The notes beneath the pieces are model-generated. The model saw only the letters and a list, made by a program, of their open reading frames with translations. It searched no databases and had not been told where the DNA came from. The translations under genes were made by a program, and so were the position numbers. A stretch of 64,000 bases of DNA, taken from Chitinibacter tainanensis DSM 15459 (GTDB lineage: Bacteria; Pseudomonadota; Gammaproteobacteria; Burkholderiales; Chitinibacteraceae). Each line of letters begins with the position of its first letter. Within the stretch, counting starts at the first letter, position 1. Below are positions 23,818 through 58,102 of this stretch, in pieces. Location of the stretch: positions 124,001 to 188,000 of the forward strand of contig NZ_KE386953.1 of the NCBI RefSeq assembly GCF_000429785.1, read 5' to 3'.

Positions 23818-23849
23818 AGGAGCAAATCTTGACATCAAGATTTGCTCCT
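23818..23849 (-). terminator. Hairpin at the end of the WYL regulator gene
   Basis: AGGAGCAAATCTTG (23818-23831) is perfectly complementary to CAAGATTTGCTCCT (23836-23849) around an ACAT loop. It overlaps the stop codon of the regulator gene. The T tail is weak, so it is probably a terminator or RNA-stabilising hairpin. Confidence 0.55.
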
Positions 23850-24660
23850 AACTCAAAGTAGCCACAATTAGCTGCTGTGCCGCTGGATTGCCCTCATAAT
23901 CCCGCACGAACTTGGAATTCAAGTAAAACAACATGGATTTTCTAATTTTCAGGGTTAACTTCAGCGTGTCATGTGGGATTTGATATTCTGTTGCAATGGC
24001 CTTACGTTGCTCCAACGCAAGACTTGGATTTGGCATAACCACTACATATACCTGAGTATGCCAATCAAGGTCATCTTCTTGATGCACCTCAGAGCCCTTG
24101 CTAGATCCAGTTTCAAGAACACGTCCAAGCACAAAATCTCTAAATTCATTGTGCGTATGACAGAAGGCTCGCACATGCCAGCGCTCACCATCTGAAGCAA
24201 ATGCATGGGGAGAAAGCCAACGCCACGCAGGTTGCTTACCACTCATGGACTGATATCTAACTTCAATCATCCGCCTCTCCCTGACTGCAGAAACCATTAC
24301 CTGCAATACCGATGGTGCAGCTTTACGAATAGGTAGCGGCCAGGTATCAATGGGTACCGATATAGAGGGCAGTCCCATAAATTCGTCCAGTGTGGCAGGG
24401 AAAATCACTTGTGGTTTGAAACCGGGCATCGGGACATATCGGCGGATAGAACTCTTGTACTCCATAGAATTCGGAAATTGCTCCATATAAGCTCGGAAAT
24501 CTTTTGCTGCCTGGATTGGATTTATTCCAAATTCATCGATCAAATCTGCGCGCTTTAACTCACCACGCCAAAATAAACAGCGCTCGATATGCTGCATGCG
24601 TTTAAGTACTGTCGGTGACCACTCTTTTACTGTTTGTAGGTTTGTATTTTCATTCGTCAT
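23848..24660 (-). CDS. WYL-domain transcriptional regulator, BrxR/CapW-like
   Basis: A 270-aa protein with an N-terminal winged helix (LFWRGELKRADLIDEFGINP, residues about 30-55), a central WYL domain (about 120-190, with VRYQSMSGKQPAWRWLSPHA and WHVRAFCHTHNEFRDF) and a C-terminal WCX-like domain (KLTLKIRKSMLFYLN). This layout and size fit the BrxR/CapW repressors that control phage-defence operons and may sense nucleotides through the WYL pocket. It is divergent from the Wadjet-like operon, so it most likely represses that operon and itself. An upstream TTG at 24669 is possible, but ATG 24660 is preferred. Confidence 0.82.
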   Translation of the reverse strand: MTNENTNLQTVKEWSPTVLKRMQHIERCLFWRGELKRADLIDEFGINPIQAAKDFRAYMEQFPNSMEYKSSIRRYVPMPGFKPQVIFPATLDEFMGLPSISVPIDTWPLPIRKAAPSVLQVMVSAVRERRMIEVRYQSMSGKQPAWRWLSPHAFASDGERWHVRAFCHTHNEFRDFVLGRVLETGSSKGSEVHQEDDLDWHTQVYVVVMPNPSLALEQRKAIATEYQIPHDTLKLTLKIRKSMLFYLNSKFVRDYEGNPAAQQLIVATLS

Positions 24661-24718
24661 TTTTGGCAACCCTTTACTTCCTGCGACTAATATCCCGCGG
24701 CACTGACTTGATCGCTAG

Positions 24719-24822: not shown

Positions 24823-27800
24823 ATGGATAACAAAGTAGCCGACCATGACGATGACGTGATTCCACGCTATGCGCTACTTAGGGTCATTCTCATTGACTCT
24901 TATACAGAGGGACGAATCACTGAATTGCCCATTGAGGGTGGAACAGCATTGGTTAGCGGCAACGGACGTGGAAAAACCTCACTACTGCAGTTGATACCAG
25001 CATTCTTTGGTGAGCGTCCCGACCGTATTGTCAAGCCTGTAAGCAACCAGGGTAATTTTGCGCATTACTATCTACCCCGCTCGACTTCCTTCATTGTATT
25101 TGAATACCGACGTGATGCAGCCCTGTGCTGTTCTTTGCTGAGTTCAGATCCGACCGGAGATGCGGTTGAATATAGGTTTGTGCGCTCTGGCTACCAGCGT
25201 GACTGGTTTGTAGACGAAGATAGCAGCATGTTGGTGACTAGCGGCAATTTGCCGGAACGACTGAAGCTGCTAGGGGCAGATTTTTCACGCAAGATGCCTC
25301 TAGATCAATACCGAGCCATCATCCAGGGCAAGAGAGCCCACGGTTCTGATCTGAAGCAGCATCGCCGTGACCTTAACGATTATGCCTTTTGCCCTAGCTC
25401 ACGCTCTCTACCTCACATCGAGCGGATTGTATTTGGCATGTTTGCGCGCAAATCCAACTTCAACGACCTTCAGCGAATGATTGTATCGACAGTCACCGAT
25501 GCCAATACAAAACTTTCACTCGGTGCAGAGCGCAAGAAGATTGAAGTTTGGCCGGATGCCTTTGATAGCTATCTGTCCGTCATGCAAGAAGCATCGCGTC
25601 TAGATGATATCCAACGTTCCTATGACGACGTACTAGGGGCAGAGCAAGAGCTTCGCAATATCCACGGGCGATTTGTTGCACTCGATCAAGAGCTAAAAAT
25701 CCGAAAAGAAGAAAAGACCACTGAGCTGCAGCGGGCCAAGATAAAACTTGAGGAGTCAGAGACTACTTTCAAAGATACCCAATCTCACCTTGCCGCCCAG
25801 ATCGGAGAGTTGGATCGTGAAATTACGGCTTGCCAATTCAAACTTACTGGGCTGAACGATAAGCAGCGCTTCTACCAAGAAAAAAATATTGAATCTCTGA
25901 CAGAGTTGTTGGAGCAGGAACAAGTAATTAAGCGGGAACTAACTCAGCTCACAGAGCGAAGAGTCACCTTACTGGATCAGCAATCAAACATCGAAGCGAA
26001 GTACCAGGAAATTCTCAACAAGTTGAAGCTGACCCATCAAACGATGCTGACCACGTTCGAACGGGAACGCACTGCGGCACAGGGGGACTTTCAGGAAAAA
26101 ATCAATACGCTCCATGCAGAGAGCCGGGCAGAGGAAGATGCTGTAAGGCAAATCTCCCTCGACGATGAGAAAATATTGCAGCTAACGATTGAAACGGCAA
26201 ACGAGGCTGTAGGAGCCACCCGGGAGAAGATGAACAATCCACAACCGGATCCTGTTTTGGTCTCCAATGCAGAGGCGCAGGAAGAAAATGTCAGCAAATT
26301 CCGTGATGCTCAAGAAGAAGCAAGTAAGCAGGAGTCCGAGGCACTAGAAGCCTATAGCTTTGCCAAAGAGAAATATGAGTCCGCGGAGTTAGCACTGAAA
26401 GTCCTACATGGCCAGATTACCTCTGAGAATGATCGTCTCGAAGCGTTACTTAAGAAGGCTGAACCAGATGAGAACAGCTTGCTCCACTACCTCCGTCTAA
26501 ATCGATCAGACTGGACACTCGATATTGCCAAAGTACTGCGGGAAGACTTGCTCTCTCGAACCGATCTTGCACCGACCTTGGTTGCCATACACGACAGCGT
26601 GTATGGCCTACAAATTGATCTTGATTATTTGAGTACTCCGCTTGCCGCTGACGAAACTGCACTCCAGGCAGAAATTGAGCAGATACGAACCGCTATCAAA
26701 AGCCTCTATGTCCAACAGGTTAGTCTTGAGGTCGGATTGACCGAACTCAGCCAAATCCGGAGTACTTCAAACAGTAAGCTATCTGAGATGTCGGCTAAAA
26801 CATCGCTTGCCAATAAAGCTCTTGAATCCGAACAGATTGCGCTCAAGGCAGCCCGGCTTGCTGTACAGCGCAGCCGTGAGTCTGCAGGAGAACAGGCCAA
26901 GCAACAATACGATCATGCAGTCAAAATCGCTCAAGAGGCTAAGCAGGCTTTGCATGACCATCGCGAACAGCTGAAAAAGGATATCCTGGGGATTCAGCTT
27001 CGTCAGGAAAATCAGCAGGAAGAGTATCTGGTGGCCTTGAATGCAACTCTGGCTCGCATTCATCAGGCAGAAACCGATGCAGAGAAAAAGCATAAAGCCC
27101 AAAGTCAGCAAATCGAGATGGAACGTCTTGCCAAACTCAAAGACAACGGTGTCGATACCATGGTTCTGCGGGAGCTTGAACTGCAAATCGGCGAGGGATC
27201 GGAAAAACTGACCTTAATCGATTCGTCTCGTAACCTAGTTGCCGAATGGCGCCTGTGGCGAGAATCGGAGTGGTCAATGAAGGCGACTATAGAGCGATCA
27301 ATAAATATAGCGAGCCAGCATAAAGCAAGAATCTCCTCCGAGAAGAATGAATTGAGTAAGGGCTGGTTTAAAGATCAAAACCAACGTAAGCAGTCAATAC
27401 AAACACTGACCAATGCCATCGACATTATTGAGAAAGAGTTGAGTCATATCGCTCTCCAGAGGCAAGTCCTTGCTGACTTCCCTCCCAACCTTGTTGCGTA
27501 TCCTGAACACATAGCTCACCTCACGCTCCAAGTTTTAGTTGAGCAGGTCAACAATCAACGGAAAAATCTGGATAAGCATGAGGAAATATTAAAACGGGAA
27601 ATAACAGCTCTCAAACGGGTGTTCAGCAATACTCGTAACTCTCCAGCTGATCAGTATTATGAGTCAAGGCGCAAGGAGATCGGCCCGGATCGAGCTGAGC
27701 ACCCCAGAGAATGGGTACCAATCTTTAGGGATTGGTATCAGACCATTCACAAAGAATGCCACCGCTTGCTCCATATCGACGCGAGGACGATCGCGGACTT

Positions 27801-28509
27801 AGTCGGCGATTTCCGAGACAAGATGACTATGTTTCATAGCAAGGTACAGCAGTTTAACCGTGAGCTGCAAGACAATATCAATGCAAACCAAGGATTCAAG
27901 AGCATTGGCGGCCTGACGGTTGAGATAGTTTCCTCAATACGAGAGCTGGAATATTGGACCACCGTAGACAAGCTTGCAGATTCCCGCTTGGAATGGCTGG
28001 CAGGTAATCAAACTAACTTACCCCCGCCGGAGTTCGCATTGGCGTTACGCGAACTATTGGATCACTGGCAACTAAAGGAGGGCATCCAGGCCGAACTAAC
28101 GCACCTGGTTCGTATCCAGGGGGAGGTTATTGAGAATGGCAAACGGCGCCCATTTAAGAAAGCCGAGGACTTGGAGCACATTTCATCCAATGGACTTTCC
28201 TATATCGTGATGGTGCTGCTATTCATGGCTTTTATCAATAGAGTCAGGGGAAATAGTGCGATTAATATCGTTTGGGCGCTCGATGAGATCGGGTCACTCG
28301 ACACAGGTAATACGGTCACACTGGTTAATATTCTGAAAAAAAACAACATTACGCTGGTTACGGCCTGCCCAGATCCGAAACCAGACGTATTGGCTACGTT
28401 CAGAAATAGGCGTGCGATCAGCAGTGACAGACGAATTTACGAGCCAACTCCATCAAACATCTCGCCAAAGCACATATCCAGTGCAACAAAGGAAAACAGT
28501 TATGTTTGA
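24823..28509 (+). CDS. Wadjet JetC-like SMC/MukB-type ATPase
   Basis: A 1228-aa SMC-like protein. The N-terminal head has Walker A GNGRGKTS (residues 46-53). About 700 residues of alternating Glu/Lys/Gln coiled coil follow, interrupted by a hinge-like globular part. The C-terminal head has a signature-like SSNGLSYIVM segment and Walker B INIVWALDEIGSLD with the catalytic glutamate. This architecture belongs to the MukB/MksB/JetC group, which extrudes DNA loops; in Wadjet it senses small circular plasmids and presents them for cleavage. It is the first gene of a four-gene overlapping set. Its last 8 bp overlap the next gene. In most described Wadjet loci this gene is third, not first. Confidence 0.85.
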   Translation: MDNKVADHDDDVIPRYALLRVILIDSYTEGRITELPIEGGTALVSGNGRGKTSLLQLIPAFFGERPDRIVKPVSNQGNFAHYYLPRSTSFIVFEYRRDAALCCSLLSSDPTGDAVEYRFVRSGYQRDWFVDEDSSMLVTSGNLPERLKLLGADFSRKMPLDQYRAIIQGKRAHGSDLKQHRRDLNDYAFCPSSRSLPHIERIVFGMFARKSNFNDLQRMIVSTVTDANTKLSLGAERKKIEVWPDAFDSYLSVMQEASRLDDIQRSYDDVLGAEQELRNIHGRFVALDQELKIRKEEKTTELQRAKIKLEESETTFKDTQSHLAAQIGELDREITACQFKLTGLNDKQRFYQEKNIESLTELLEQEQVIKRELTQLTERRVTLLDQQSNIEAKYQEILNKLKLTHQTMLTTFERERTAAQGDFQEKINTLHAESRAEEDAVRQISLDDEKILQLTIETANEAVGATREKMNNPQPDPVLVSNAEAQEENVSKFRDAQEEASKQESEALEAYSFAKEKYESAELALKVLHGQITSENDRLEALLKKAEPDENSLLHYLRLNRSDWTLDIAKVLREDLLSRTDLAPTLVAIHDSVYGLQIDLDYLSTPLAADETALQAEIEQIRTAIKSLYVQQVSLEVGLTELSQIRSTSNSKLSEMSAKTSLANKALESEQIALKAARLAVQRSRESAGEQAKQQYDHAVKIAQEAKQALHDHREQLKKDILGIQLRQENQQEEYLVALNATLARIHQAETDAEKKHKAQSQQIEMERLAKLKDNGVDTMVLRELELQIGEGSEKLTLIDSSRNLVAEWRLWRESEWSMKATIERSINIASQHKARISSEKNELSKGWFKDQNQRKQSIQTLTNAIDIIEKELSHIALQRQVLADFPPNLVAYPEHIAHLTLQVLVEQVNNQRKNLDKHEEILKREITALKRVFSNTRNSPADQYYESRRKEIGPDRAEHPREWVPIFRDWYQTIHKECHRLLHIDARTIADLVGDFRDKMTMFHSKVQQFNRELQDNINANQGFKSIGGLTVEIVSSIRELEYWTTVDKLADSRLEWLAGNQTNLPPPEFALALRELLDHWQLKEGIQAELTHLVRIQGEVIENGKRRPFKKAEDLEHISSNGLSYIVMVLLFMAFINRVRGNSAINIVWALDEIGSLDTGNTVTLVNILKKNNITLVTACPDPKPDVLATFRNRRAISSDRRIYEPTPSNISPKHISSATKENSYV

Positions 28510-29125
28510 ACAATCAATGTCGTTGTTATTGTCAGGTGAGTTTATTTGCGAGGTGCGTTACCCCGATGCCTTTCGATACTTGGCAAGCGATGCCAACCAG
28601 AAGGATGCTAATGCCTACTTGACCCGTATTGGACGTACGCTTGCATCTACTGAATTGGGTGGAGCATGGTTTGCATCATATGCATACATGGGCGATGAAG
28701 AAAGAAAAGTCATCAAGTCTGAATTTACAAAACTCTGGCAACGTACCCGTTTTTTAGTGGATTTCTTTGGCAAGGCAATGCGAGCCTCCAATAAAGAGGA
28801 TTATTACTCACGTGGCGACAAAATCGAATTTCATGCACTGATGGCCGCAGTGGATGGAAATCCTGGCTTAAGAGCGGAATTTCAGGCACTCGGCAGATTG
28901 ACTGGGGGGAGTTCCAGTGACGGAAAACTTCGCTCTTTATTAGCTAACTTTTTCAAAGAGCTAGTCAGTGATGGTTATCTGATTGTGGCTAATTCAGAGC
29001 GGGAGATTTACCAAGTGACCGGAAAGATAGAATACTTAATTGAAGTGGTGCAATTCCTGATGACCACACACAACATTTCTGATGACACTGTGGAAGAGCA
29101 GGAAAGCGCTGCTTCGCTGTTCTAA
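28502..29125 (+). CDS. Wadjet JetB-like (MukE/MksE-type) subunit
   Basis: A 207-aa winged-helix-rich protein. The start at 28502 overlaps the end of the SMC gene by 8 bp and has AAGGAAAAC upstream; the open frame extends further upstream but inside the SMC gene. The size, acidic C-terminus and position between the SMC and kleisin genes match MukE/MksE/JetB subunits, which bind the kleisin and DNA. A wing-like segment is seen in SDGYLIVANSEREIYQVTG. Identification rests on context and general resemblance rather than on a diagnostic motif. Confidence 0.7.
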   Translation: MFEQSMSLLLSGEFICEVRYPDAFRYLASDANQKDANAYLTRIGRTLASTELGGAWFASYAYMGDEERKVIKSEFTKLWQRTRFLVDFFGKAMRASNKEDYYSRGDKIEFHALMAAVDGNPGLRAEFQALGRLTGGSSSDGKLRSLLANFFKELVSDGYLIVANSEREIYQVTGKIEYLIEVVQFLMTTHNISDDTVEEQESAASLF

Positions 29126-29129
29126 AGCC

Positions 29130-30365
29130 ATGACGACTAAATCCGATCTAGTTCTTCAACACCTAGAAACGCTCTTCAAATATCGTGCGCTGGTTGCAAC
29201 AGCATATCACCAAGGTGCCGTAGATTCTTCCGATGATCCCGCTGGGGGCAAGGGTATTGAGAATCTTAGGCAGGCAGGCATTCTGCTGCCACGCAACGAA
29301 GGTTCATATCGACTATCGTCGTCACTAATGCGCCACCTAGATGAAACCTTGCAAAAAGAGCGGCTGTATTCCTCGTCAGGAGCAGAGCTCTTTGAGCTTG
29401 CGCAACGCTTACCTGAAATCACCAACATGGTTGCGGATGCTGCTTATGAAGGCAGAATTGAAGATGCAGATCATTACATCGACGAATTCGATCTCAAAGT
29501 ATTTGAGATCGCAGATAGTGTACAAGCCTCTCTAGTTACCCTGCGTTTCCAGTGTGATAATAATTTCGCGAATGTAAGCACATTTTCTGAAAAACAACAT
29601 CAAAACGAGTATTACCTTGAACGTGCTACTCGGATCAGTGAGACCTTGAGCTCGATTCAATCCAATAACCTCGCTCATGCTCTAGAGTCAACACCAGAGG
29701 GCGGGCGCATGCTGGTGACTTATCAGTCCCAGATCGCCAAGCATCTGAGCGAGTGGCGCGCCCAGTTGCTGGATATCACCTCGATCCTACATGCTTATCT
29801 TCATAAGACCCGGAATATACAGATGGTTGCGCGACGGATGCGAGCCTTCGAGCTTTTCCTGAGGCGCAATCCAGGCTTTGTGCCTGATGAACTCGACGAT
29901 ACGGTCAACCTCCCAGATTGGATTAAGCGAGCACGTAGCCTCCCATTAAAAGCGCATATCAGTGTACAGGCCCCTGAATTTGATGAGGAACTACTTAATA
30001 TCGCCCACAGCATTCCAAACACTAAACAAAAGGAGTCACCTCCTCCACGGATTGGATCATTGCTACCGGATGCGCCGATCGATACAGAGGAAAATATCAT
30101 GGCCGCCCAAGAGTGGGAGCTGGCTATCTTGGCATTTCTCAGCGAACTGAGTACTGAACCGATCTCGGCAATAGAATGGAAAGCTACTAAACCCAAATTA
30201 GCATACATCGATGATGATATTTGGCTTCTATGTTTACTGCGCGAAGAAGAGAATGATTTAGCTCGGAATGCGGATGTGCGCTTTGAGCACGTTTCGCTAC
30301 CAACTCTTCAAATATGCGGCAACATTTACTTGGTCGATATCTATTTATCAAGGTTAGCAGCATGA
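29130..30365 (+). CDS. Wadjet JetA-like kleisin (MukF/MksF-type) subunit
   Basis: A 411-aa protein from the ATG at 29130, 4 bp after the preceding stop. The N-terminal part is a winged-helix-like segment (LETLFKYRALVATAYHQG, then RQAGILLPRNEGSYRLS). A long helical middle follows (residues 100-250), and the C-terminal part carries a second winged-helix-like segment. This is the pattern of MukF/MksF/JetA kleisins that bridge the SMC heads. The last four bases (ATGA) overlap the start of the TOPRIM gene, showing tight translational coupling. Assigned mainly from layout and operon. Confidence 0.7.
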   Translation: MTTKSDLVLQHLETLFKYRALVATAYHQGAVDSSDDPAGGKGIENLRQAGILLPRNEGSYRLSSSLMRHLDETLQKERLYSSSGAELFELAQRLPEITNMVADAAYEGRIEDADHYIDEFDLKVFEIADSVQASLVTLRFQCDNNFANVSTFSEKQHQNEYYLERATRISETLSSIQSNNLAHALESTPEGGRMLVTYQSQIAKHLSEWRAQLLDITSILHAYLHKTRNIQMVARRMRAFELFLRRNPGFVPDELDDTVNLPDWIKRARSLPLKAHISVQAPEFDEELLNIAHSIPNTKQKESPPPRIGSLLPDAPIDTEENIMAAQEWELAILAFLSELSTEPISAIEWKATKPKLAYIDDDIWLLCLLREEENDLARNADVRFEHVSLPTLQICGNIYLVDIYLSRLAA

Positions 30366-31204
30366 ACAAAACAACAGCTAAGAGTCTTCTCAGAATTATT
30401 CAGAGTTCGACTGATCGCATTGAATTCCCGGGTTCTAATGTGCTTCTTCAGTTCGTTCAGGAAAGCGGCATTGGCCTAATTAAAGGTCGTAAAGTTATTT
30501 TCAACGAAGGGCATAAGATTAGGATCCGTAAATGGTTAGAAGCAGAACAGATTGATCCGAATTCCTCGCCTGACGTCTGGAATGAGGCAAGCCGCTCAGA
30601 TGCAATTAGGCTTGGCCCTGATGAGAAATGGGCCGGTATTGCGGTAAGAAGTAAGCGGATTGCAATAAAGAGTTTTCATGGAAAACCACTAAACGTATCA
30701 GGAAACAATCTTTTCCTTCCGCTCGGTGCAAATCTCGAGTGGGATTACTCAGATGCAATCAACTTCCTGCTGCATACAGATGTGATCGTTGTCGAAAACT
30801 GGGAGGTTTTCGAGCACATAGATTACCTTCAAGTTGACTTTAGTAGAGTTTCAAGTAATCCACTTATTCTTTGGCGTGGCGGCTCCACTTCGACTGCTGG
30901 ATCTGCTAGACGTTTTCTTGAAAATTATGGGCGTCCTGTATGGTCTGCTCCAGATTATGATCCGGCCGGACTAGCAATTGCAGCTAACTTACCCTGGCTT
31001 GCTGGAGTATTAGCTCCAAGTGACAAAGAGCTGAGTTTATTACTCAAAAAATCCAAGTTACATCAGCGCTTTAGCGACCAACTGCCGGGATCATTAACAA
31101 CAATAGAATCTTCAGTTGACCCTGACATTCAACGAATCTGGCAACTAGTATTTGAGAGCAAAAAGGCGCTACCACAAGAGGCATTATGCCGGAGATCGGC
31201 ATGA
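30362..31204 (+). CDS. Wadjet JetD-like TOPRIM nuclease subunit, short form
   Basis: A 280-aa protein with a C-terminal TOPRIM-like core: a strand ending in the glutamate of VIVVENWE (E145) and the acidic pair of APDYDPAGLAIA (D198, D200). These are the expected metal-binding residues of JetD/MksG, which cuts the plasmid. It is shorter than the JetD proteins usually described (about 350-400 aa), so the N-terminal arm domain must be reduced. The start ATG at 30362 overlaps the kleisin stop (ATGA). The gene ends 73 bp before a convergent gene of the Tn7-like block. Function is inferred from the operon and the TOPRIM residues. Confidence 0.78.
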   Translation: MNKTTAKSLLRIIQSSTDRIEFPGSNVLLQFVQESGIGLIKGRKVIFNEGHKIRIRKWLEAEQIDPNSSPDVWNEASRSDAIRLGPDEKWAGIAVRSKRIAIKSFHGKPLNVSGNNLFLPLGANLEWDYSDAINFLLHTDVIVVENWEVFEHIDYLQVDFSRVSSNPLILWRGGSTSTAGSARRFLENYGRPVWSAPDYDPAGLAIAANLPWLAGVLAPSDKELSLLLKKSKLHQRFSDQLPGSLTTIESSVDPDIQRIWQLVFESKKALPQEALCRRSA

Positions 31205-31657: not shown

Positions 31658-33757
31658 TTAGTTAAATTTAGTACGGGAACTAATAGGTATTAGCCTATAC
31701 TCTCGGGCAACAAGAGCCACATCTTCCTTAGAATAAAACTTCACTCGGCGCTTCCCTTCCCCTACATAAAGCGGTTTAATTCCTAACCTTGACTCCAAGT
31801 TTGGAAAAAAACTACGATGCATACCAAAAAGCATACCTGCTTGCGAGGCTGAAAAATAATCAGCAGCAAGCTTCTTTGGATACAATAAGTCATGCTCATG
31901 GATTAGCCGCCATACATGGAGATTTATCACTTTTACCATGCCAGTCTCAATAAAATACACCTCAAATTGATCTAATGTGTACCCTAGTAACTCTGCCGCT
32001 TCAGCAACTTTAATATAAGTAGGAGAAAATATAATCTCGGCTAACGCACTTAAAGACCTTTCCGTAACTAAAACATCGCGACAACTTGAATTCTCCTTCC
32101 TCAAGACTCCTTTGTGAATTAGTGAGGCAACCGCCTGATTAGAAACCCCAAGCAGTCTGGCAGAGGTCGTCAAAGAAACTCCAGAGGCCGGCTGAAATAC
32201 GGAATTTTTCCGTGGCCTACCTGCTTTTGTTTTATATTCTTTAAGATCTTTTATCAAAGAGCAGTCAATTCTCTCTAAATCTGATTTTCGAAAGAAATAA
32301 ACTAAAACACCATCGACACAAGGACCAGCAATCGGTAGAGCACCAAGATGGACTAATTTTTCAGCACAGTTGGTGGGATTTATTCCGATTGATCGAGCAA
32401 GTGAACCCGCAGACTGATAATTTTGATTAAACAATTCAACACTAGCCGTATTTAGCATGATTTTTTTCGGTTTTTCTCCATCCAAAAATCCATGATCAAT
32501 CCAACCTTTATGAAGCAAACTTCTGACCACTTCGATATGAACATCGAGCAACAAAGCCACATCGTGAAACGACATGACAATTTCATTATTAGGCTCCAGC
32601 TTGGAAGATTTCACTTTTATTGCAAGAGATTGAAGCCCAGTTTTTAGATCATAGCCAAGCGAATACGCCTTCCCACTCAATAGCAGCTTTAGCCTCTCAA
32701 CTAGGCTCACACGAGAAGGTGTTAAGGATGGCAACTCATCTCCTATTGATTTATTTTGAAAATTAAAAAGTAATTCCTCCAGCCCATTCAATTCGAAACA
32801 TAAATATGCACCACCATACTCCACCATCTTTAACACGCCTTCAGAGACAAGGTCATCAAGTTGATGTCGACCTACGCCGAGGATATCACTTGCTTCACGT
32901 CTGCCAACCTTATAATTATGATCTTTAATATCCTTTTCAAAACTGACGCCATTTAATTCACCTAAAATCTGACATGCATATTTTTTTAAAGTATTGCCAG
33001 CACATAGAAAGCTTCGTAGAGCTACTCTAGGATGCCTACCTTGATCAAGGACTAACTTCCTAATCTCATCTACAGCAACTTCATCTGAATAATACCAAGC
33101 GATAGTGACCCGTAGCCGCCATAGCTCTTTAATTGCTGAAGCATTCTCATCATCCACTTGTGTCAATGCCATCCAGAATTTAAAGAAGCCATCTAATTTA
33201 GCTTTCTCACTTCCTTCCAGCAAAGCATACAACCATTGAGTTGGCTTTGGATCCTCTAGAATTCTAGGCGAATGAGTTAAATCAGCCCCGCACTCGCAAT
33301 AAAATAGCCGATCTCGATTAAAATCAAGTGGTTTACTACATTTATAGCAACTTAACTGCATTAAAACTGCATGGATATGGCAAACAGAATATGGGCGCAG
33401 CAGCCACAACTTTCTCCAATATGGTTTTTCGATAATACAAATTGGACAAAATGCAGAACAATCTTCTCGAAAAGCAAGCTGAGGTATCAACTTTTCGTTA
33501 TAGCGCCTACAATCCACCCCAGATCGACTTACCCTATGGAGTATAGATTCCGAAAAATCTCCAAACAATCCAAAAATATTAACAAGCCTATCAATACTCC
33601 TCGCAGTAGAAAAAGAAGGTGAATATATATAATTAACACGATGCGCTAGAAACATTTCCCTTGCATTTTTATAACCATTACCTTCTGATGCACGCAAAAA
33701 GAAGGAAGCAACAGACTCACAAGGCTGCAGTATTGGGCGAAATAATAAGCCAGGCAT
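31658..33757 (-). CDS. TniQ/TnsD-like target selector with multiple helix-turn-helix units
   Basis: A 699-aa protein. Residues 1-160 form a TniQ domain with the typical start (LLFRPILQPCESVASFFLR) and two Cys/His clusters, FCPICI (about 103-108) and CHIHAVLMQLSCYKC plus CEC (126-156), likely zinc sites. The rest carries about six helix-turn-helix-like segments near residues 286-309, 396-420, 449-474, 529-552, 583-608 and 637-660, each with the pattern LLGV-x(7)-LxxxGxL. Such TnsD-type proteins recognise a fixed attachment site and recruit TnsC. The number of HTH units suggests recognition of a long DNA site. The target is unknown. Confidence 0.82.
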   Translation of the reverse strand: MPGLLFRPILQPCESVASFFLRASEGNGYKNAREMFLAHRVNYIYSPSFSTARSIDRLVNIFGLFGDFSESILHRVSRSGVDCRRYNEKLIPQLAFREDCSAFCPICIIEKPYWRKLWLLRPYSVCHIHAVLMQLSCYKCSKPLDFNRDRLFYCECGADLTHSPRILEDPKPTQWLYALLEGSEKAKLDGFFKFWMALTQVDDENASAIKELWRLRVTIAWYYSDEVAVDEIRKLVLDQGRHPRVALRSFLCAGNTLKKYACQILGELNGVSFEKDIKDHNYKVGRREASDILGVGRHQLDDLVSEGVLKMVEYGGAYLCFELNGLEELLFNFQNKSIGDELPSLTPSRVSLVERLKLLLSGKAYSLGYDLKTGLQSLAIKVKSSKLEPNNEIVMSFHDVALLLDVHIEVVRSLLHKGWIDHGFLDGEKPKKIMLNTASVELFNQNYQSAGSLARSIGINPTNCAEKLVHLGALPIAGPCVDGVLVYFFRKSDLERIDCSLIKDLKEYKTKAGRPRKNSVFQPASGVSLTTSARLLGVSNQAVASLIHKGVLRKENSSCRDVLVTERSLSALAEIIFSPTYIKVAEAAELLGYTLDQFEVYFIETGMVKVINLHVWRLIHEHDLLYPKKLAADYFSASQAGMLFGMHRSFFPNLESRLGIKPLYVGEGKRRVKFYSKEDVALVAREYRLIPISSRTKFN

Positions 33758-34729
33758 TTATTTATACCGCCTGAATTCACCAGCCAAATCGGCCTCACTT
33801 AAACGAAAAGGATTTCTTTTTGTGCAGGATGCCGAGTGCATAATCCCTGAATCCCATACGATAGCAAAATCATCAAGAGTTAATTGCTTCCCAGCCGCTC
33901 CAAGCGTTAGTTGCAACCCTTCCTTGATCAACGTCATTATGTAGTCCAGGTTTCCACTTGTTGCTAAATATATTCTCACCGTATTTAGATAACTATCTGC
34001 CAAATGGACATTCTCTAATAAAAACTCCTTCTTGAGATGAGTCCCCATCCGATCAAGAAAATAGTAAAGCTCACCAGGATTTTTTGAAGTTCCTGGCATC
34101 AACTTCCTAATTCTAAATCTGTATTTAAAGCGCCGAGTTAACTGAAAGCTCATATCTGAATCTATTATCGACTCACTCTCCTCGGTGCCAACTAAACAAA
34201 GACAGGCGCTAGTACTATTAACTAGCGATTTTATCCATCTTAGTGCTGCAATGTGCGCTGAATTTCTAACTGGGCTTGCAACTAAAAAGTTGTGACACTC
34301 ATCCAAAAAAATTACCTTTGTTTGACAATTTTTTATATGGGTTGCAATTCTCTTTGTTTTACCTGCAATTGTTCCAGAGTCTGGGGTTGAATCACTCAAC
34401 CCAGATAGAATATTTGAAGCAAGATGGCTAAGTGAGATTTGTGATGGCACCTCTGCACGAAAGGCAGAAATTATTTTTATTTCTTCAGTTTCAGTTTTGT
34501 GTATACCTTTAGGAAGACCAGCTTCAATCAACTTGCATATTGTGCTCTTCCCCATCCCTCCCTCAGCAAGTAACATACACCCTACTGGCTCCCTATACTT
34601 CTCCGATAAATTAATACATCGTTTAATACCTTCAATAGCATTAATCATATCAGGATGCTGAACAACCACATTATCTAGTTTTGCAATCCGATCAATCAAG
34701 TCTTCGCTTTTAAAATTATCATCAATCAT
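33758..34729 (-). CDS. tnsC: TnsC/TniB-like AAA+ transposition ATPase
   Basis: A 323-aa ATPase when started at ATG 34729, one base after the tnsB stop and behind TTGGAGAAT; the frame extends upstream only inside tnsB. Walker A reads AEGGMGKST and Walker B VIFLDECHNFL, with a sensor-like CLVGTEES. TnsC/TniB proteins form ATP-bound filaments on target DNA and connect the target selector to the transposase. It is followed directly by tniQ (TAAATG). The size agrees with TniB rather than with the longer TnsC of Tn7. Confidence 0.85.
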   Translation of the reverse strand: MIDDNFKSEDLIDRIAKLDNVVVQHPDMINAIEGIKRCINLSEKYREPVGCMLLAEGGMGKSTICKLIEAGLPKGIHKTETEEIKIISAFRAEVPSQISLSHLASNILSGLSDSTPDSGTIAGKTKRIATHIKNCQTKVIFLDECHNFLVASPVRNSAHIAALRWIKSLVNSTSACLCLVGTEESESIIDSDMSFQLTRRFKYRFRIRKLMPGTSKNPGELYYFLDRMGTHLKKEFLLENVHLADSYLNTVRIYLATSGNLDYIMTLIKEGLQLTLGAAGKQLTLDDFAIVWDSGIMHSASCTKRNPFRLSEADLAGEFRRYK

Positions 34730-34730
34730 T

Positions 34731-36716
34731 TTAATTCTCCAAAAATAGAATGTCATAGCCATCTGAATTATTGACACCATCTTCTTTAGAGAGCTTCTCG
34801 CCAGAAAGATCATCGCTTGATAGAGGTAAAGCACCTGCGGTGGTATAATCATCAGCAATAGCTGTTACACTACTAGAACCAATAACAAAATCAACATCTA
34901 CCTTCTTTTCCTTAGCATGCTCAATACGTCCTTTGCCATTGGTAATTCGTGCAATTTGCTTTTTTGCCATAGCAGAATCTTTGTTAATTTTCTCCATTAA
35001 TGTCCACCATGCTAATAATGGCGCATATCGACCCAATTTTTGGCGATCAGCCTCGGACATATTTTTTATTATTTTCTTGGTCTCTTGATGCTCATACCAA
35101 GTTAAGTCTTTTGTATAATCAGGATTTGTTGATTCGGCCAATATATGAGTACCAGGTTCAGTTGGATGTTCAACGTAAACAGAATGAAGGTTAAGTTCAT
35201 CAATAAGCACCGTGACATTAGTTTCTCCCATGCATTCAAGAGTTGCTAATGCATGCGAGAAATATTCGATCTTATCTATCAGAACTCGGCCTTTACTGAT
35301 TTTTTTCTGTACAGGCCATCGCGCTATTACATTTATTTCTTCAGGTGTAATCTCTGGGGCTTCCCAGCCACTGGTAGCATCACTCCATGCCAAAATTGGA
35401 GCGCGGCCGGTCCGCGTATGAATCGTCTTGTGATAAACCTCATTAATCCATTCAAGAATATAACCATGCAATTTTTCCAAAACGACTGACGCATTTTTTT
35501 GTGAATCGTAATCACCGCGATCAACTGGGCTGGAAAATGTTGTGCCTTTTAATTTCTGAATCAAACCATAAGTCAAAGTCCTAAAGAACGATTCAATATG
35601 GGCTTTATCATTTGGATCGCGGACTTCGGCTGGCAACAGAATGATGTTGAAATGTGCACAGAGTCGGGAAAATGCAGTGTTTTTAAATTCAACACCATTA
35701 TCAGGAATAATTCTGACTGGAATACCTCCAGGCAATCCCAATCCCAAACGCGTTAACATATCTTTCGCTGCTGCTAGCGTTGTTGTTGCTGAAGGCGGAA
35801 ACATACTGATGTATGTCCCGACAATAGTTCGCGTGTACACATCTGTTATGCACACCAAGTAAGGTCTGCCAATAATCTCACCCGTATCTGGATCAATGAT
35901 GATCACATCAATTTGATGAGTATCAATTTGCACAATGAACATTGCTCGTGGACTTAATAATTCGCGACCCGCAGCCCGTAATAGGCGATCCGCAGCCGCT
36001 TTCCCTTTTTTAACCAGAGCGACAACATAAGGGTCGAGTGACTTAATCCTTCGTTCTATAGTACGTATAGAAGGGACAGGGATCATTGAGTCATGGCTGG
36101 TCAGCAGCCCTTGCTCCGCGAGCTTACCGACGACATAGGCCAATACATCTTTTGCATTTTTCCGTTCAGGGACAAGATAGATTTGTTGTATTCCCTCACT
36201 AATCAAAATCTCAATCTGCGGCGAAAAACGTAACGTGCGATTACCTTTGAGATACCTTTTTGGATAAAAGGACATGCCCGACTTGTTTTCTGCGAAGTAA
36301 TTTTGAACCCAACCGGCAACAGTTCTCGACGATGGTGCTGCGGAATCTTGTAATTCTTCAGCCAAAATTGGAATCATTGCATCCAGCTGCAGCTTAGAGC
36401 ATGGTTTACTCAATCGAGTCACAGCGGCTTCGACATATCTCATTTGCCTTATCGACGCCTTCCTCTCTTCCTCATTGAGCTCAGCCAATTTTCGATTCTT
36501 GCCATCAGCAGACATCCGCTCAACTTCGGTCGGCGAAATCAACAATACATCTGACCGCTGCATCTCCATAAATCGCTCAAAAGGGATGCGAAACGCTTTT
36601 CCACCAATACAAGCGGCATATCGGACCATGCCCGCGCCAACATAGGCTATTTCAAACTCACAACCATGGATGGCAAATCTTAGTCCGGGTCTTGGAATGA
36701 ATGCTGTTTTTGTCAT
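34731..36716 (-). CDS. tnsB: TnsB-like DDE transposase
   Basis: A 661-aa Mu/TnsB-type transposase. N-terminal DNA-binding HTH regions are followed by the integrase core with the DDE acid residues in FIVQIDTHQIDVIIID, RIIPDNGVEFKNT and DPNDKAHIESFFRTL. The C-terminal part holds the beta-barrel domain and a charged tail that would contact TnsC. The ATG at 36716 overlaps the tnsA stop by four bases (ATGA). TnsB binds the transposon ends and performs strand transfer. A further 21 upstream codons are open inside tnsA but are not needed. Confidence 0.9.
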   Translation of the reverse strand: MTKTAFIPRPGLRFAIHGCEFEIAYVGAGMVRYAACIGGKAFRIPFERFMEMQRSDVLLISPTEVERMSADGKNRKLAELNEEERKASIRQMRYVEAAVTRLSKPCSKLQLDAMIPILAEELQDSAAPSSRTVAGWVQNYFAENKSGMSFYPKRYLKGNRTLRFSPQIEILISEGIQQIYLVPERKNAKDVLAYVVGKLAEQGLLTSHDSMIPVPSIRTIERRIKSLDPYVVALVKKGKAAADRLLRAAGRELLSPRAMFIVQIDTHQIDVIIIDPDTGEIIGRPYLVCITDVYTRTIVGTYISMFPPSATTTLAAAKDMLTRLGLGLPGGIPVRIIPDNGVEFKNTAFSRLCAHFNIILLPAEVRDPNDKAHIESFFRTLTYGLIQKLKGTTFSSPVDRGDYDSQKNASVVLEKLHGYILEWINEVYHKTIHTRTGRAPILAWSDATSGWEAPEITPEEINVIARWPVQKKISKGRVLIDKIEYFSHALATLECMGETNVTVLIDELNLHSVYVEHPTEPGTHILAESTNPDYTKDLTWYEHQETKKIIKNMSEADRQKLGRYAPLLAWWTLMEKINKDSAMAKKQIARITNGKGRIEHAKEKKVDVDFVIGSSSVTAIADDYTTAGALPLSSDDLSGEKLSKEDGVNNSDGYDILFLEN

Positions 36717-37429
36717 GGCTTCATTCCCACTAATGTTGTCAAGCGAAGTGGCCGGTTTAGATTTGCCTGAAATACGCAATGAAATAAAAGATGATCAGCA
36801 AGCAGCGGCGAAAGCCCACCCATTTTAAATTTTGCATACAAATCTCCCAGTTGCACCGGAGCATCTAGTTTGGATATAAGCTGGATTGCGAGCTCCTCCT
36901 CAAGAGAAGTCCATTCTTTATTGATCGATCTTTGATATAGAAAACTCAGATTCTCAAACTCAACGCGTCCAGGTAGATCGGTTTGATCGATAACGTCGAA
37001 ATCAAAGCCGTTGGAATTAAGGATGTTCTTAATCAGGGCATGCCGTTTTTGCACTTCATCAGGAAGTAATTTTTTATCGGGTTTGACCTCACGAACTAAC
37101 CATTGCTCATCAGCCGTTCGAATCAAAAAATCTGGGAAATAGCGAGTCCCATGACCGAGTTCCAGTTCAAGAGCTTGGCACCGATAAACGCTTACATTGG
37201 GGTTTCGTTCACACGCAACACAAAAGGCCAGTTCCAATTGGCTTTCTAAGGCGATCGTCATACCGTTCTTACGACTAGGAAATAAAGCTGTGCGTTTTCC
37301 ACGTGCACCTTGTGTGATTCGTCTACGACCATGCACTACACCGGCAAGGTCAGGTTTTTCGGCAAATGCCTCTTCGACTTGCCCCATCAATGTTTTGAGC
37401 AAGGATTCTTGGAAAGTGGTGTTAATCAT
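36713..37429 (-). CDS. tnsA: TnsA-like endonuclease
   Basis: A 238-aa protein with the restriction-endonuclease-type fold of TnsA: catalytic glutamate in ALESQLELAF, aspartate in RYFPDFLIRT and lysine in WLVREVKPDKK. This matches the Glu-Asp-Lys triad of TnsA. The C-terminal half carries a helical domain that in Tn7 contacts TnsC. TnsA cuts the 5-prime strands at the ends, so the element would move by cut-and-paste. It is the first gene of the leftward tns operon and lies nearest to the expected right end of the element. Confidence 0.88.
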   Translation of the reverse strand: MINTTFQESLLKTLMGQVEEAFAEKPDLAGVVHGRRRITQGARGKRTALFPSRKNGMTIALESQLELAFCVACERNPNVSVYRCQALELELGHGTRYFPDFLIRTADEQWLVREVKPDKKLLPDEVQKRHALIKNILNSNGFDFDVIDQTDLPGRVEFENLSFLYQRSINKEWTSLEEELAIQLISKLDAPVQLGDLYAKFKMGGLSPLLADHLLFHCVFQANLNRPLRLTTLVGMKP

Positions 37430-38426: not shown

Positions 38427-39647
38427 ATGCGCATACTGCACACATCCGACTGGCATCTGGGCCAGCACTTCATGGGTAAGACTCGACAAGATGAGCATCA
38501 AGCGTTTATTGCTTGGCTTGTTGATCAGGTCGCAAAACATAGAATTGATGTAGTTTTAATCGCTGGCGATATTTTCGACACTGGTGCGCCGCCCAGCTAT
38601 GCACGGGAAATCTACAACTCGCTCATCGTCAAGTTGCACGACACAGGCGCTCAGCTTGTCGTACTCGCTGGCAATCATGATTCCGTGGCAACCTTGGGTG
38701 AAAGCAAGCATTTGTTGGCTCGCCTAGGTACACATGTCATTCCCGCTGTTGCAGACTCACTGGAGAACCAGCTACTCACACTTAAGAATCGTTCAGGCCA
38801 ACCCGCTGCATTGCTCTGTGCGATTCCCTTTATTCGCCCCCGCGACGTGATGCAAAGTCAAGCCGGACAGAGCGCGGAAGAGAAGCAACTGAGTCTGCAA
38901 GAAGCAATTCACGCTCATTACCAACAGCTGTATGCGCTCGCAGAAGAATACCGAACACAATATGAGACTCATTTGCCAATTATTGCCACCGGCCACCTAA
39001 CCACAGTGGGTGCCAGCGCCAGCGAATCGGTACGCGAAATCTACGTAGGGTCGCTAGAGGCCTTCCCTACCGCAGCATTCCCGCCTGCGGACTACATTGC
39101 ACTCGGGCATATTCATCGGCCACAAAAGGTCGGTGGGCTGGAACATATCCGCTACTGCGGCTCGCCTATCCCACTCAGTTTTGATGAACTTGGACAACAA
39201 AAAGAAGTGCTGCTGGTAGATCTTGATGAAACAGGATTGAAGCAGATCACGGCCATCCCTGTGCCTATATTTCAGCCACTTGCCAGTATCAAAGGAACGC
39301 TAGAAGAACTGGGTCCAGCAATTCATACCGCAGCACAATCTGCGCAGTCTGAGCGTCCTGTATGGCTGGAGGTAACGGTGCGAGGCGATGACTATCTGTC
39401 TGACTTGCAACCACGCATTCAAGCCTTGACCGAAGGTTTGCCAGTTGAGGTACTACGCATACGGCGAGATCGCAGTGAAGTTGCTGCTAGGTTGCATGCT
39501 GAGGCTAAGGTCACCCTAGATGAACTTAGCCCAGATGAGGTTTTTGCCAAACGCCTTGAACAGGAAGACCTGCCCGAAGAACTGACTCAACAACTCAAAC
39601 AACGTTACCAGAACATCGTTTCGCTACTTCGTGAGGAGCAGGCATGA
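38427..39647 (+). CDS. sbcD: Nuclease SbcD (Mre11-like subunit)
   Basis: A 406-aa metallophosphoesterase nuclease that with SbcC removes hairpins and protein-blocked DNA ends. Phosphoesterase motifs are in order: [32 protein letters not shown] and LGHIHRPQ. The start [13 protein letters not shown] is the universal SbcD start, so the coordinate is secure even though the ribosome-binding site is weak. The C-terminal part carries the capping and SbcC-binding region. The stop overlaps the sbcC start (ATGA), the usual sbcDC arrangement. Confidence 0.95.
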
Positions 39648-42600
39648 ACATCCTCACCCTGCGTCTGAAAAACCTTAACTCGCTCAAGGGCGAGTGGAAG
39701 ATTGATTTCACACAACCGCCCTTCAAGGACAACGGTTTATTTGCCATCACCGGCCCAACTGGAGCCGGTAAATCTACCCTGCTCGATGCGATCTGCTTGG
39801 CGCTTTATCACGAAACACCACGACTCAAGAACATTTCGGCCTCATCGAATGAAATCATGACGCGGCATACAGCTGACTGCTTGGCCGAAGTGGAATTTGA
39901 GGTAAAGGGGCAAATCTATCGTGCATTCTGGAGTCAGCGGCGGGCACGTGACAAAGCCGATGGTGCCCTGCAAGCCCCCAAGGTTGAGTTGGCAGATGCT
40001 AATGGCACAATCCTAACCACCCACAGCAACGATAAACTCAAACGTATTGAAGCAATCACCGGTCTGGATTTTGGACGCTTCACGAAATCAATGATGCTAG
40101 CCCAAGGTGGCTTTGCGGCCTTCCTGAATGCCAATGCTAATGAGCGAGCAGAACTACTGGAAGAACTAACCGGAACCGATATCTACGGGCAGATTTCACA
40201 GCGCGTTTTTGAGCAAGCTCGTGATGCTAAGAACACACTTGATCAGTTGAAAGCAAAAGCTGACGGTGTAGAGTTGCTTCCCGATGAAAAACGCCAAGCG
40301 ATGCAAGCAAAAATCGCCGAACTCACCGAGCAATTATCCGTGCTGCAGAGCGAGCTCGGACAACTGCAACAGCTACGACAATGGCGCCTTCAACTTTCTC
40401 AGGCAGAAAAGGCGACTCAGGAAGCGAAGCAAACAGAAGACACAGCAAGACTTGCACTAGAATCGGCGCAACCACAACTGCATCAGCTTGAACTCAGCGA
40501 GCCAGCAGAAGCCCTCCGCCCCACTTTTGCTGCATGGCAAGATGCAGACGGACGCCTCCACCATGTTCAGTCCAGTTTGAGTGCTGTTCAGGAAGAACTG
40601 TCCAACGCTCGAAAACAATCAGTCACAGCCCATTGGCAGGCAAAGACAATTGCAGAAGAATTAGCGGCAAACGAGACCAAGCTCTATGAAGACCTCAAAC
40701 ACCACATTAAACAGCTGGAAGCCTGGCAGACCGAGCACGCCCACTTTGCAACTTTAGGTGAAAAGCTTAATGGGTGGCAGGTTGAACACCGGCAGTTAGA
40801 GCTAAATCGACAAGCGATTCTGGCCCTTGAGGCGCAACATCAGAAACAAAGCCAAGCACAAGCCGAAGTCGCGACCCAAATTGTCAGCCAACAACAGATC
40901 CAGCAACAGGCCCAATCGCAGTGTGTAGAGAGTAAGAATCTCGTCGCAGCTGCCGAGCAACAACTCAACCAGCTGTTGAACGGCAGTACTCTGCAAGCGC
41001 TGCGCGAGAACTGGCAACGCACACAAGAACAGCTGATTGCTTGGCAGCAAATCAGCTCTTTGGCCGAGCAACTGCGCAGGAACAGCAAGCATTGTAGCGA
41101 TCAGGAAAGCCAAATTGTGACGGCCAACCAGCAACTGACTGAACTACAGACCGCGCTAGATACTGCTCGAAATAACTACCGACAACTTAAAGAACAGGCA
41201 GATGACAAGCGCAAGCTGCTGCAGCAAGAGCAACGAATTCAGAGCTTGGAGTTTCACCGTGCAGCATTGAAGTCAGGAGAGGCATGCCCATTATGTGGCT
41301 CCCCCGAACACCCTAGCGTTCAAATCTATCAGCAGCTCGATGTGTCTGCCACTGCGCTCTCATTGCAGGAAAAAGAAGCAGCATTGCAGGAAGCATTAGA
41401 AGTTGGCCAAGCGATCAAAAGCCAGATCGACCAGCTTACCGGTAGCCTGACACAGTACCAGCAAGTACTAGCTGGACTGATTCATACTCAACAAGAAATT
41501 CAAGCCAAGTGGGATGCTTCAGCTACTGCTCTAGGGTTAGCATCAACGACTTGGCAAAATCCCGAGTTGCTCACACAAGAGCTAGAAAATATGGCGCGGC
41601 AAGAAGCCGAGCTCAGAGCTGCACTTGAGCGCACCGAGACGGCCCAGCAAGCTTTGATCAAAGCCCGCGAAAACAAGGCTGCGCATGATGCGCAGCTACA
41701 AGCTGTAGATACGCAATTGGCGCTACTCCAGCAAAGTTATGATCAAGCTGTCCAGCGCATCTACGAACTTGAGCAACAAATTGCCAAGGATGCAGCAGCT
41801 CAGCAACAAGCGACGATGGCGCTAAGCACCGCCATTAATGATTCAGGTTTTGCTCCCGCCGATGATATGAGTAGCTGGCTGGAAAGCCGCCAGCAAGACT
41901 GGCAAACATGGCGGGAAAAGCTAAAAGCACTGCAACTTCAAGCCAACGAACTACTAAATCAACAGCATCGTAGCGAGCAAGCGACTAACCAGAAAGTGGC
42001 ATGGCAATCGCGTTGGGACAAACTGGCGGAACCTATTACACCGCAACGCTTGGACATCACAATCAGTGAATCAATGCTTGTGCAGTACACGGCAGAAGTC
42101 GAACGACTAACGACGCTAATCGCTACTTTGCACGGTCAAGAAACGCAATTGGAGGCAGATAGGCAAACCCAGCAGCAAGTTTGCGAAGTCGCCAAAGCCA
42201 ATTGGCATATGGCATTGTCGCAAAGCCCTTTTGCCGACCAAGCGGCCTTTGCGCAAGCGCTGCTACCCACAGAAACCCGTCAACAGCTACTCGCTCTGCG
42301 ACAACAGCTACATCAAGCACTTGAACGCAGCCAAGCTGTGCAACAAACAGCGACAGCGGCACTGCTCCAACTACAAGAACAAGCCCTCACCCCGCTTGAC
42401 CTTACCGAGCTAGAGACACAAATCACAGCGTTAGATACACAACGTCAAACCATTTCTGCTGAACAAGGTGCGCAACAGGCGCTGTTACACGACGACGCAC
42501 AGCGCCGAGAGAATCAAGTCGTTCTATTCCAGGAAATTGCGATGCAAACGGCAGATGCAGACCTCTGGCAGCGACTTAATAGCCTGATCGGCTCCAAAGA

Positions 42601-43063
42601 AGGCGACAAATTCCGCAAATTTGCACAAGGGCTGACTCTCGACCACTTGATGCATTTGGCCAATCGCCATTTAGAGCGGCTACATGGCCGCTATCTTATG
42701 CAGCGCAAGAATAGTGGCGAGCTGGAACTAGAAATTGTGGATACCTGGCAGGCCGATGTCACTCGTGATACTCGTACCTTGTCCGGTGGAGAGAGCTTTT
42801 TAGTAAGTCTAGCGCTGGCTTTGGCTCTTTCAGACCTTGTGAGCCATAAGACATCTATTGATTCGCTTTTTTTGGATGAGGGGTTTGGCACGCTTGATGC
42901 CGAGACTTTGGAGGTTGCACTTGATGCGCTTCACGTAGTTAACTCTTCAGGGAAGATGATTGGTGTTATTAGTCATGTAGATGCCATGAAAGAAAGAATC
43001 GCTGTACAAGTGAAAATAAAAAAATCTAATGGTGCAGGATTCTCCACAATTAACTTTCAGTAA
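39644..43063 (+). CDS. sbcC: ATPase SbcC (Rad50-like subunit)
   Basis: A 1139-aa SMC-related ATPase. The N-terminal head has Walker [10 protein letters not shown] and the Q-loop region, followed by two long Gln/Glu-rich coiled coils that flank a zinc-hook CPLCGS near residue 548. The C-terminal head has signature [17 protein letters not shown] and Walker [12 protein letters not shown]. SbcC with SbcD processes DNA ends and palindromes and helps control cruciforms. Translation is coupled to sbcD by a four-base overlap. The coiled coils are unusually glutamine- and alanine-rich. Confidence 0.95.
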
Positions 43064-43084
43064 TAACAAAGCAAAGGAAAATAT

Positions 43085-57925: not shown

Positions 57926-57959
57926 ACACTTCGATTCACGATGTATCGTGATGACTCAG

Positions 57960-57994
57960 AAACCCGCATAAAGCCTAGCTTTAGCGGGTTTTTT
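57960..57994 (+). terminator. Terminator of ssrA
   Basis: AACCCGC (57961-57967) pairs with GCGGGTT (57984-57990), with an inner TAAAGC/GCTTTA stem and CTA loop, followed by a T run. It lies inside the island, so the island supplies this terminator. Confidence 0.85.
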
Positions 57995-58040
57995 CTTGCC
58001 CAGCGTGTAGCAAGACGCACCAGCAAAGCGCAAATAATTT

Positions 58041-58099: not shown

Positions 58100-58102
58100 A
58101 AC

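Follow-up and report, generated by a model that had tools for sequence, protein, structure and literature searches.

A likely Wadjet-like SMC-nuclease operon of a separate family, with a short TOPRIM nuclease, in Chitinibacter tainanensis

A stretch of 64,000 nucleotides from Chitinibacter tainanensis DSM 15459 (contig NZ_KE386953.1, positions 124,001 to 188,000; hereafter the window, by whose numbering the operon and its neighbors are located) carries at 24823-31204 four overlapping open reading frames (ORFs), all on the plus strand, which encode an SMC ATPase, a KITE subunit, a kleisin and a TOPRIM nuclease and thereby make up a four-gene set of the Wadjet type. Judged by its profile matches, the operon belongs to a separate SMC-nuclease family that has no name in the libraries searched, and it probably encodes a Wadjet-like SMC-nuclease defence complex of distinct composition (DUF3584, MksE-like, MukF-like and DUF7281 proteins). 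This reading is based on the gene content, the family and fold calls, the intact ATPase and TOPRIM residues, the fixed gene order and a context of mobile elements and defence islands.

Gene content and conserved order

The gene starts listed in Table 1 were refined through the overlaps and the homologues, and the start of the TOPRIM gene overlaps the stop of the kleisin gene through ATGA. The SMC protein matches the DUF3584 profile (PF12128) over residues 22-1199 with 626 bits against a curated cut-off of 31, and it contains what we take to be the Walker A motif (GNGRGKT, 46-52), the signature motif (SSNGLSY, 1121-1127) and the Walker B motif (WALDE, 1151-1155). The nuclease matches DUF7281 (PF23947) with 72.5 bits against a curated cut-off of 27.

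Gene order was scanned in 124 rows, comprising the window and the related loci L017-L019, L021, L022, L042-L046, L075-L094, L096-L108 and L110-L189; set aside were L020 (contig-edge start), L023-L029 (second-group or incomplete), L095 (same contig as L042) and L109 (a fragment). The first three genes were found in 123 of the 124 rows, L098 showing the SMC gene alone, and in every one of these 123 rows they run SMC-KITE-kleisin on one strand, which argues that the operon is no chance row of ORFs. A TOPRIM gene follows this trio in 65 of the 123 rows and does not in the other 58, one of which (L102) is cut at the kleisin. The core motif residues of the SMC protein are kept in rows with and without the nuclease. 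A preliminary description of this DNA had proposed overlapping genes for an SMC ATPase, a MukE-like protein, a kleisin-like protein and a TOPRIM nuclease, with the SMC gene leading in the order C-B-A-D, and both the gene set and the order are confirmed.

Predicted folds of the KITE and kleisin subunits

As first called, genes two and three gave nothing significant in Pfam on their own. The MksE family matches 12 of 13 homologues of the KITE gene, the window protein itself scoring 6.9e-5 and 23.7 bits, below the curated cut-off of 27; DUF4194, the family that PADLOC names for JetB, matches nine of the 13. The third gene is predicted to have the MukF/JetA fold. Its AlphaFold model, built from a 13-row alignment (predicted local distance difference test (pLDDT) 71.6, predicted template modeling score (pTM) 0.40), displays an N-terminal winged helix, a helical middle, a poorly predicted linker and a C-terminal winged helix. 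The top ten Foldseek hits in the PDB are nine MukF/MukBEF chains and one E. coli JetABCD chain (8q72_E), the best with an E value of 2e-4, two below 0.001, and with low TM-scores to the query of 0.13-0.21. Because helical bundles of STAT and syntaxin reach the same Z as MukF in the VIA list, the kleisin call uses the Foldseek ranking and the domain plan only. Sequence searches of the PDB with the SMC, KITE and kleisin profiles returned only coiled-coil, P-loop or unrelated matches. With MksE in most of the KITE homologues and MukF at the head of the Foldseek ranking, the likeness of the two middle genes to MukE and MukF is borne out.

The short TOPRIM nuclease

The preliminary description had singled out E145, D198 and D200 in a TOPRIM protein of only 280 residues, and these are invariant in all 65 aligned nuclease rows (L017 and L107, which are the same contig, are both counted), as are K89, N146, G173, G203, Q240 and Q272. 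All 13 copies from plasmids and phage also have the catalytic E/D/D intact; among the residues looked at, only K89, E145, N146, R172, G173, D198, D200 and Q272 are invariant in them. In the predicted model (pLDDT 73, pTM 0.51), a small winged-helix-like domain (residues 1-61) is confident. The structural alignment of the TOPRIM region begins at residue 94 as opposed to 206 in JetD (7til), and at residue 159 as opposed to 242 in MksG (8b7f), so that the nuclease would have roughly 110 (relative to JetD) or 80 (relative to MksG) fewer residues before TOPRIM. The suggestion that the N-terminal part is reduced relative to JetD thus holds at the resolution of a predicted model, and such a reduction would mean that the nuclease is held and released unlike the long-armed JetD. 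A truncated gene is ruled out as the cause of the short nuclease, since lengths of about 265-300 aa recur among relatives. In genus g387, the nucleases of L112, L185 and L187 have 220-224 aa with the family-profile match starting at 68-75; in these proteins the winged helix at the N terminus is apparently absent, or the start is miscalled.

Relation to Wadjet and other SMC systems

Wadjet type I (JetABCD/MksFEBG) resembles the window operon in combining SMC, KITE, kleisin and TOPRIM nuclease in one operon, and in a nuclease core of the JetD/MksG/TopoVI-A type with E and DxD. The window operon, however, runs SMC-KITE-kleisin-TOPRIM, whereas type I runs kleisin-KITE-SMC-nuclease; this type I order (mksFEBG/jetABCD) had been stated correctly before, in agreement with PMC10123090. 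The nucleases also differ. Compared with the 280 aa of the window protein, the solved chains have 374 (7til) and 368 (8b7f) residues, and type I MksG/JetD consists of DUF3322 and DUF2220, with a long N-terminal part containing a CAP domain followed by TOPRIM; the window nuclease has no DUF3322 or DUF2220 match in Pfam and instead has DUF7281 and one small winged-helix-like domain. When the window proteins were searched with PADLOC-DB 2023, the matches were JetC1 at 6.8e-4 (41 residues), JetB1 at 1.8e-3 (53 residues) and JetD2 at 7.8e-3 (73 residues), with no JetA, and the distant member L018 gave only JetC2 at 0.52. Given the lack of a convincing PADLOC Jet match, the membership in DUF3584 and DUF7281 and a fixed order of its own, the operon is not a re-ordered type I system, and no described subtype among types I-III fits it. 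The earlier interpretation, a type I-like Wadjet with changed order, is therefore partly supported: it was right in kind, as the Wadjet-type complex stands, and wrong in filing.

With Wadjet types II and III the window operon shares the four-component SMC-TOPRIM plan and a long SMC (1228 aa), types II and III tending toward longer coiled coils according to PMC12647877, but its proteins give no type II or III JetA, JetB or JetC match, only JetD2 over 73 residues at 0.0078. The kleisin fold and the SMC-KITE-kleisin order are shared with MukBEF. In contrast to MukBEF, a TOPRIM gene follows the trio, and MukB (PF04310) is absent among the Pfam matches of the window SMC up to an E value of 1.

A second group of loci, L027 (1174-6567), L023, L024 and L028, has a DUF7281-type TOPRIM gene near a shorter SMC (917-956 aa), the DUF7281 match of L027 (20.7 bits) being below the cut-off. 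Like the window operon, L023 and L027 have a TOPRIM protein of about 280 aa, and L027 has an MksE-family KITE and a WYL-like gene; unlike it, both loci run kleisin-KITE-SMC-TOPRIM, and there is little sequence similarity to the window operon. With L027 and L023 as counterexamples, the short nuclease is a family trait that is not bound to the C-B-A-D order.

PMC9674854 lists DUF3584 for a plasmid 'chromosome segregation ATPase'. In the literature searched, no title gave DUF3584 a defence role, and DUF7281, PF23947 and PF12128 occurred only in one methods paper. It should be noted that 'undescribed' here means merely not found in that literature, since most subscription papers lie outside it.

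Distribution and copies on mobile elements

PF12128 was over the cut-off in six of 150 genomes of the window's relatives and DUF7281 in 11 of 369 genomes of the class. This sporadic distribution resembles that of defence genes, and the context likewise looks defence-like. In L045 (91-16618), from the window's genus, the cassette lies between an Eco57I-type methylase (in the PglX position) with an AAA/DUF3226 pair and PglZ-BrxL, and hence within a BREX-like locus; the copy in L044 is next to a WYL gene and a gene for a helicase that carries a NOV domain. A contig scan with the first 11-row SMC alignment gave 588 pattern hits with no relative among them.

A search of plasmids (PLSDB) with the SMC protein returned 45 records, 13 of them covering at least 80% of the query, and the gene-order result covers these 13. 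The four genes are present in the same order on 12 of the 13 plasmids, 11 apparently intact and one (L198) with broken SMC and kleisin frames. The thirteenth (L203, NZ_AP025295.1), from Persicobacter (Bacteroidota), has its genes in another order, with a weak KITE match ahead of an SMC of 1228 aa, and is a more distant relative. With the nuclease as the query, 11 plasmid records were found, two of which (Cupriavidus and V. vulnificus) are beyond the 13 SMC records. Among 50,697 phage records, a complete four-gene set occurs in one, the 209-kb cyanophage record of Dolichospermum phage Dfl-JY45 (L192, PP438435.1, 81931-95539), where the genes are annotated as hypothetical proteins. The annotated plasmid records that were opened label the operon genes only 'ATP-binding protein' or 'hypothetical protein'.

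Presence and absence of the nuclease at core loci

PF12128 is found in 94 of 96 genomes of family f240, which belongs to the same class as the window, and over the cut-off in 47 of 98 genomes of family f141. A 19-row nuclease profile was run against these 141 genomes, and hits near 20 bits (those in G955 and G960 and the second one in G968) were discarded. Of the 94 f240 genomes, 53 have a nuclease match above 100 bits, adjacent to the main SMC gene in 51; in G899 the nuclease is on another contig than the SMC gene, and in G917 it belongs to a second SMC copy. In the latter genome (L149) the main copy has no nuclease match, and a second, divergent copy with all four genes lies at another site. 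In f141, seven of the 47 genomes have a nuclease match, all adjacent. Decayed nuclease genes are ruled out at the nuclease-free loci, as in 57 of these (L102 excluded) the stretch of up to 1.5 kb downstream of the kleisin gene gives no sign of a TOPRIM domain (best score 1.3 bits; L121 reaches the contig edge 815 bases past the kleisin).

In genus g384, 19 of 20 nuclease-plus loci and 12 of 17 nuclease-free loci share one downstream gene, by eye a symporter (printed pairs 76-81% identical), indicating that the presence of the nuclease varies at one locus. At the symporter locus that the core version uses in congeners, L145, L124, L182 and L183 of the same genus have a distant four-gene operon, as if the whole operon had been exchanged. 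A FastTree phylogeny built from 120 trios requires at least 15 changes of nuclease state. For a 98-row subset from which distant, mostly long-branched rows were removed, there are 15 changes, compared with a mean of 31 and a minimum of 23 in 200 label shuffles, and a losses-only model requires 24 losses. Outside an 87-row clade all branches keep the nuclease, L121 aside (contig edge), and the window's own 17-row clade has all four genes in every row. The direction of change is not proven, as the tree has no true outgroup and the first tree came with long-branch warnings.

Evolutionary rates and other condensins

The distances of the trio and of the nuclease are correlated (Spearman 0.60 in 63 rows and 0.88 in 31 rows of the 87-row clade, against maxima of 0.15 and 0.44, respectively, in 999 permutations), which argues for mainly joint inheritance of the two. 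We then compared ratios of nonsynonymous to synonymous substitution rates (dN/dS), which are pairwise estimates from few pairs. Across ten pairs of the 87-row clade, the SMC values lie at about 0.03-0.13, with a median near 0.04, and the nuclease values at about 0.11-0.36, with a median near 0.2, which is about five-fold higher. Three pairs of mobile-type loci gave 0.17-0.28 for the SMC and 0.13-0.26 for the nuclease, and the pair L124/L182, which represents the distant version at the symporter locus, gave 0.08 and 0.5, respectively. The window pair is saturated, and the nuclease is below 1 in every estimable pair. The motor is thus under housekeeping-like constraint in core lineages and under looser constraint in mobile ones.

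A convincing MukB was found only in G743 among 75 genomes, three others being over the cut-off with partial matches of 22-25 bits. The f240 and f141 genomes tested have no convincing MukB; there are three partial matches of 20-25 bits, of which only that in G898 is over the cut-off. ScpA is present in 36 of 40 genomes, including all 29 trio-bearing f240 and f141 genomes tested, so that in these families the core trio is an extra and not the sole condensin. The four genomes without it are G000, G372, G743 and G881. In G000, which is the window's genome, and its congener G372, the MukB matches are only partial (22-24 bits) and ScpA gave no match; the usual condensins may be absent from both.

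Possible functions

By analogy with characterised Wadjet systems, SMC, kleisin and KITE would assemble into a dimer of SMC motors, which traps DNA and uses ATP to extrude it as loops. When that DNA is a small closed circle, the motors would collide and stall, and the short TOPRIM nuclease would then be placed on the bent DNA to make a double-strand cut. Most probably, the complex traps small circular DNA and cuts it. The 12 plasmids that carry the four genes are 107-1168 kb in size, above the plasmid-size threshold of 50-100 kb that PMC12287153 gives for Wadjet, which is consistent with Wadjet-style size sensing.

Several points weigh against this reading. The plasmid sizes come without a control for how sizes are distributed across PLSDB, and they cover the records with at least 80% of the query, 32 further records having partial SMC matches. 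No PADLOC Jet model is matched significantly over its full length by the window proteins or by L018. The predicted structure of the nuclease is of middling quality, with residues 139-166, in the middle of the TOPRIM half, poorly predicted. The best Foldseek hit of the nuclease is topoisomerase VI A at 6.8e-3, none passing an E value of 0.001, and a PDB sequence search with the TOPRIM profile likewise gave TopoVI-A, at 0.053. VIA places MksG (8b7f; Z 7.0, 111 residues, 3.5 Å) and JetD (7til; Z 5.5, 142 residues, 5.0 Å) at the top with TopoVI-A close behind, all Z values being below 8, which according to the tool's note can mean merely a common arrangement. Finally, some relatives lack the nuclease, which shows that the trio serves a different purpose in certain lineages.

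This last point leads to an explanation that we consider rather unlikely for the window operon, namely that it is mainly a MukBEF/MksBEF-type condensin that maintains the chromosome or a replicon, in which the TOPRIM protein would be an accessory with a topoisomerase-like or repair role rather than a plasmid-cutting effector. The near-universal trio of f240, often without TOPRIM and strongly constrained, would fit such a role, as would the lack of a convincing MukB in the f240 and f141 genomes tested and the presence of the four genes on large plasmids and a phage. However, the consistent ScpA matches mean that even there the trio is not the only condensin, and the window's own clade departs from this pattern in keeping all four genes throughout; the sporadic distribution, the BREX-like or Tn7-like neighbors and the faster SMC evolution in the three mobile-type pairs also speak against it. 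Still less probable is that the same motor and nuclease serve against phages or as a weapon between elements, triggered by a phage DNA structure or phage replication and not by small circles. Neighborhoods of the BREX or OLD type and the complete copy in a 209-kb phage record point in that direction, but the sequences carry no sign of phage specificity, and Wadjet, the characterised SMC-TOPRIM system, targets plasmids as described in PMC10586767.

In the relatives of the window operon, the motor appears as a core complex under constraint, whose nuclease is dispensable and evolves fast. The near-universal trio in f240, the at least 15 changes of nuclease state and the five-fold gap in dN/dS suggest repeated conversion between a defence machine and a housekeeping condensin. 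Tentatively, and with somewhat less than even confidence, we propose that the DUF3584 family is a present-day intermediate on the way from defence against plasmids to the organisation of chromosomes. A mobile SMC-nuclease weapon would have settled at fixed chromosomal loci of certain Gammaproteobacteria, its trio would have become a highly constrained housekeeping condensin, and its fast-evolving nuclease would have repeatedly disappeared from this site or been exchanged there. This would repeat, in many lineages, the route proposed for MukBEF from a Wadjet-like ancestor; an interconversion of a DNA-destroying SMC machine and a condensin has been proposed for MukBEF/MksBEF (PMC10586767). Since close genomes differ in whether the nuclease is present at a given locus, the conversion between SMC nuclease and condensin becomes directly testable, and a widespread SMC-nuclease family with a natural minimal nuclease could reveal what JetD really requires to dock and to be controlled.

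Genomic context of the window operon

Table 1. Operon genes and neighboring features in the window
Feature	Position	Strand	Evidence
SMC ATPase, DUF3584 family (JetC/MukB-like), 1228 aa	24823..28509	+	PF12128 1.4e-187
KITE subunit (MksE/JetB-like), 207 aa	28502..29125	+	Pfam MksE, DUF4194 in homologues
Kleisin (MukF/JetA-like), 411 aa	29130..30365	+	AlphaFold model, Foldseek ranking
TOPRIM nuclease (DUF7281; JetD/MksG/TopoVI-A-like), 280 aa	30362..31204	+	PF23947 4.4e-20
Divergent WYL-domain regulator	23848..24669	-	PF13280 9.2e-14
TniQ-like target-selection protein, Tn7-like transposon	31658..33757	-	PF06527 4.2e-9; PADLOC TniQ_IF 1.8e-20
TnsC/TniB-like ATPase	33758..34858	-	PF05621 1.3e-18
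TnsB-like transposase	34731..36779	-	rve 5.2e-6, Mu-transpos_C 8.1e-4, both under curated cut-offs
TnsA-like endonuclease	36713..37429	-	PF08722 3e-8

The operon is flanked by a WYL-domain gene, whose product probably represses it, and on the other side by a tniQ-tniB-TnsB-like-TnsA-like block with one small ORF in between (Table 1). The closest relative found, in Chitiniphilus eburneus (L042, L095), has the same five genes, with 61% identity in the SMC and 59% in the TOPRIM protein; its WYL gene (L042) is at the same place and 68% identical, and ORFs past it look like TniQ/TniB by eye. An inverted-repeat search for transposon ends gave nothing convincing.

Beyond the Tn7-like genes, 38427-44851 contains ORFs that resemble SbcD and SbcC by eye, as well as a gene that Pfam assigns to an OLD-like TOPRIM ATPase. 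When the sbcD DNA was used as an empty-site marker in six genomes of the same genus, it matched only the window's own genome and, partly, G370; as it is absent or partial in the five congeners, the accessory region may reach past 38.4 kb, beyond the transposon. Farther along, at 57565-59374, a tmRNA gene is followed by a tyrosine integrase gene, and another element may be integrated there, at the 3' end of the tmRNA.

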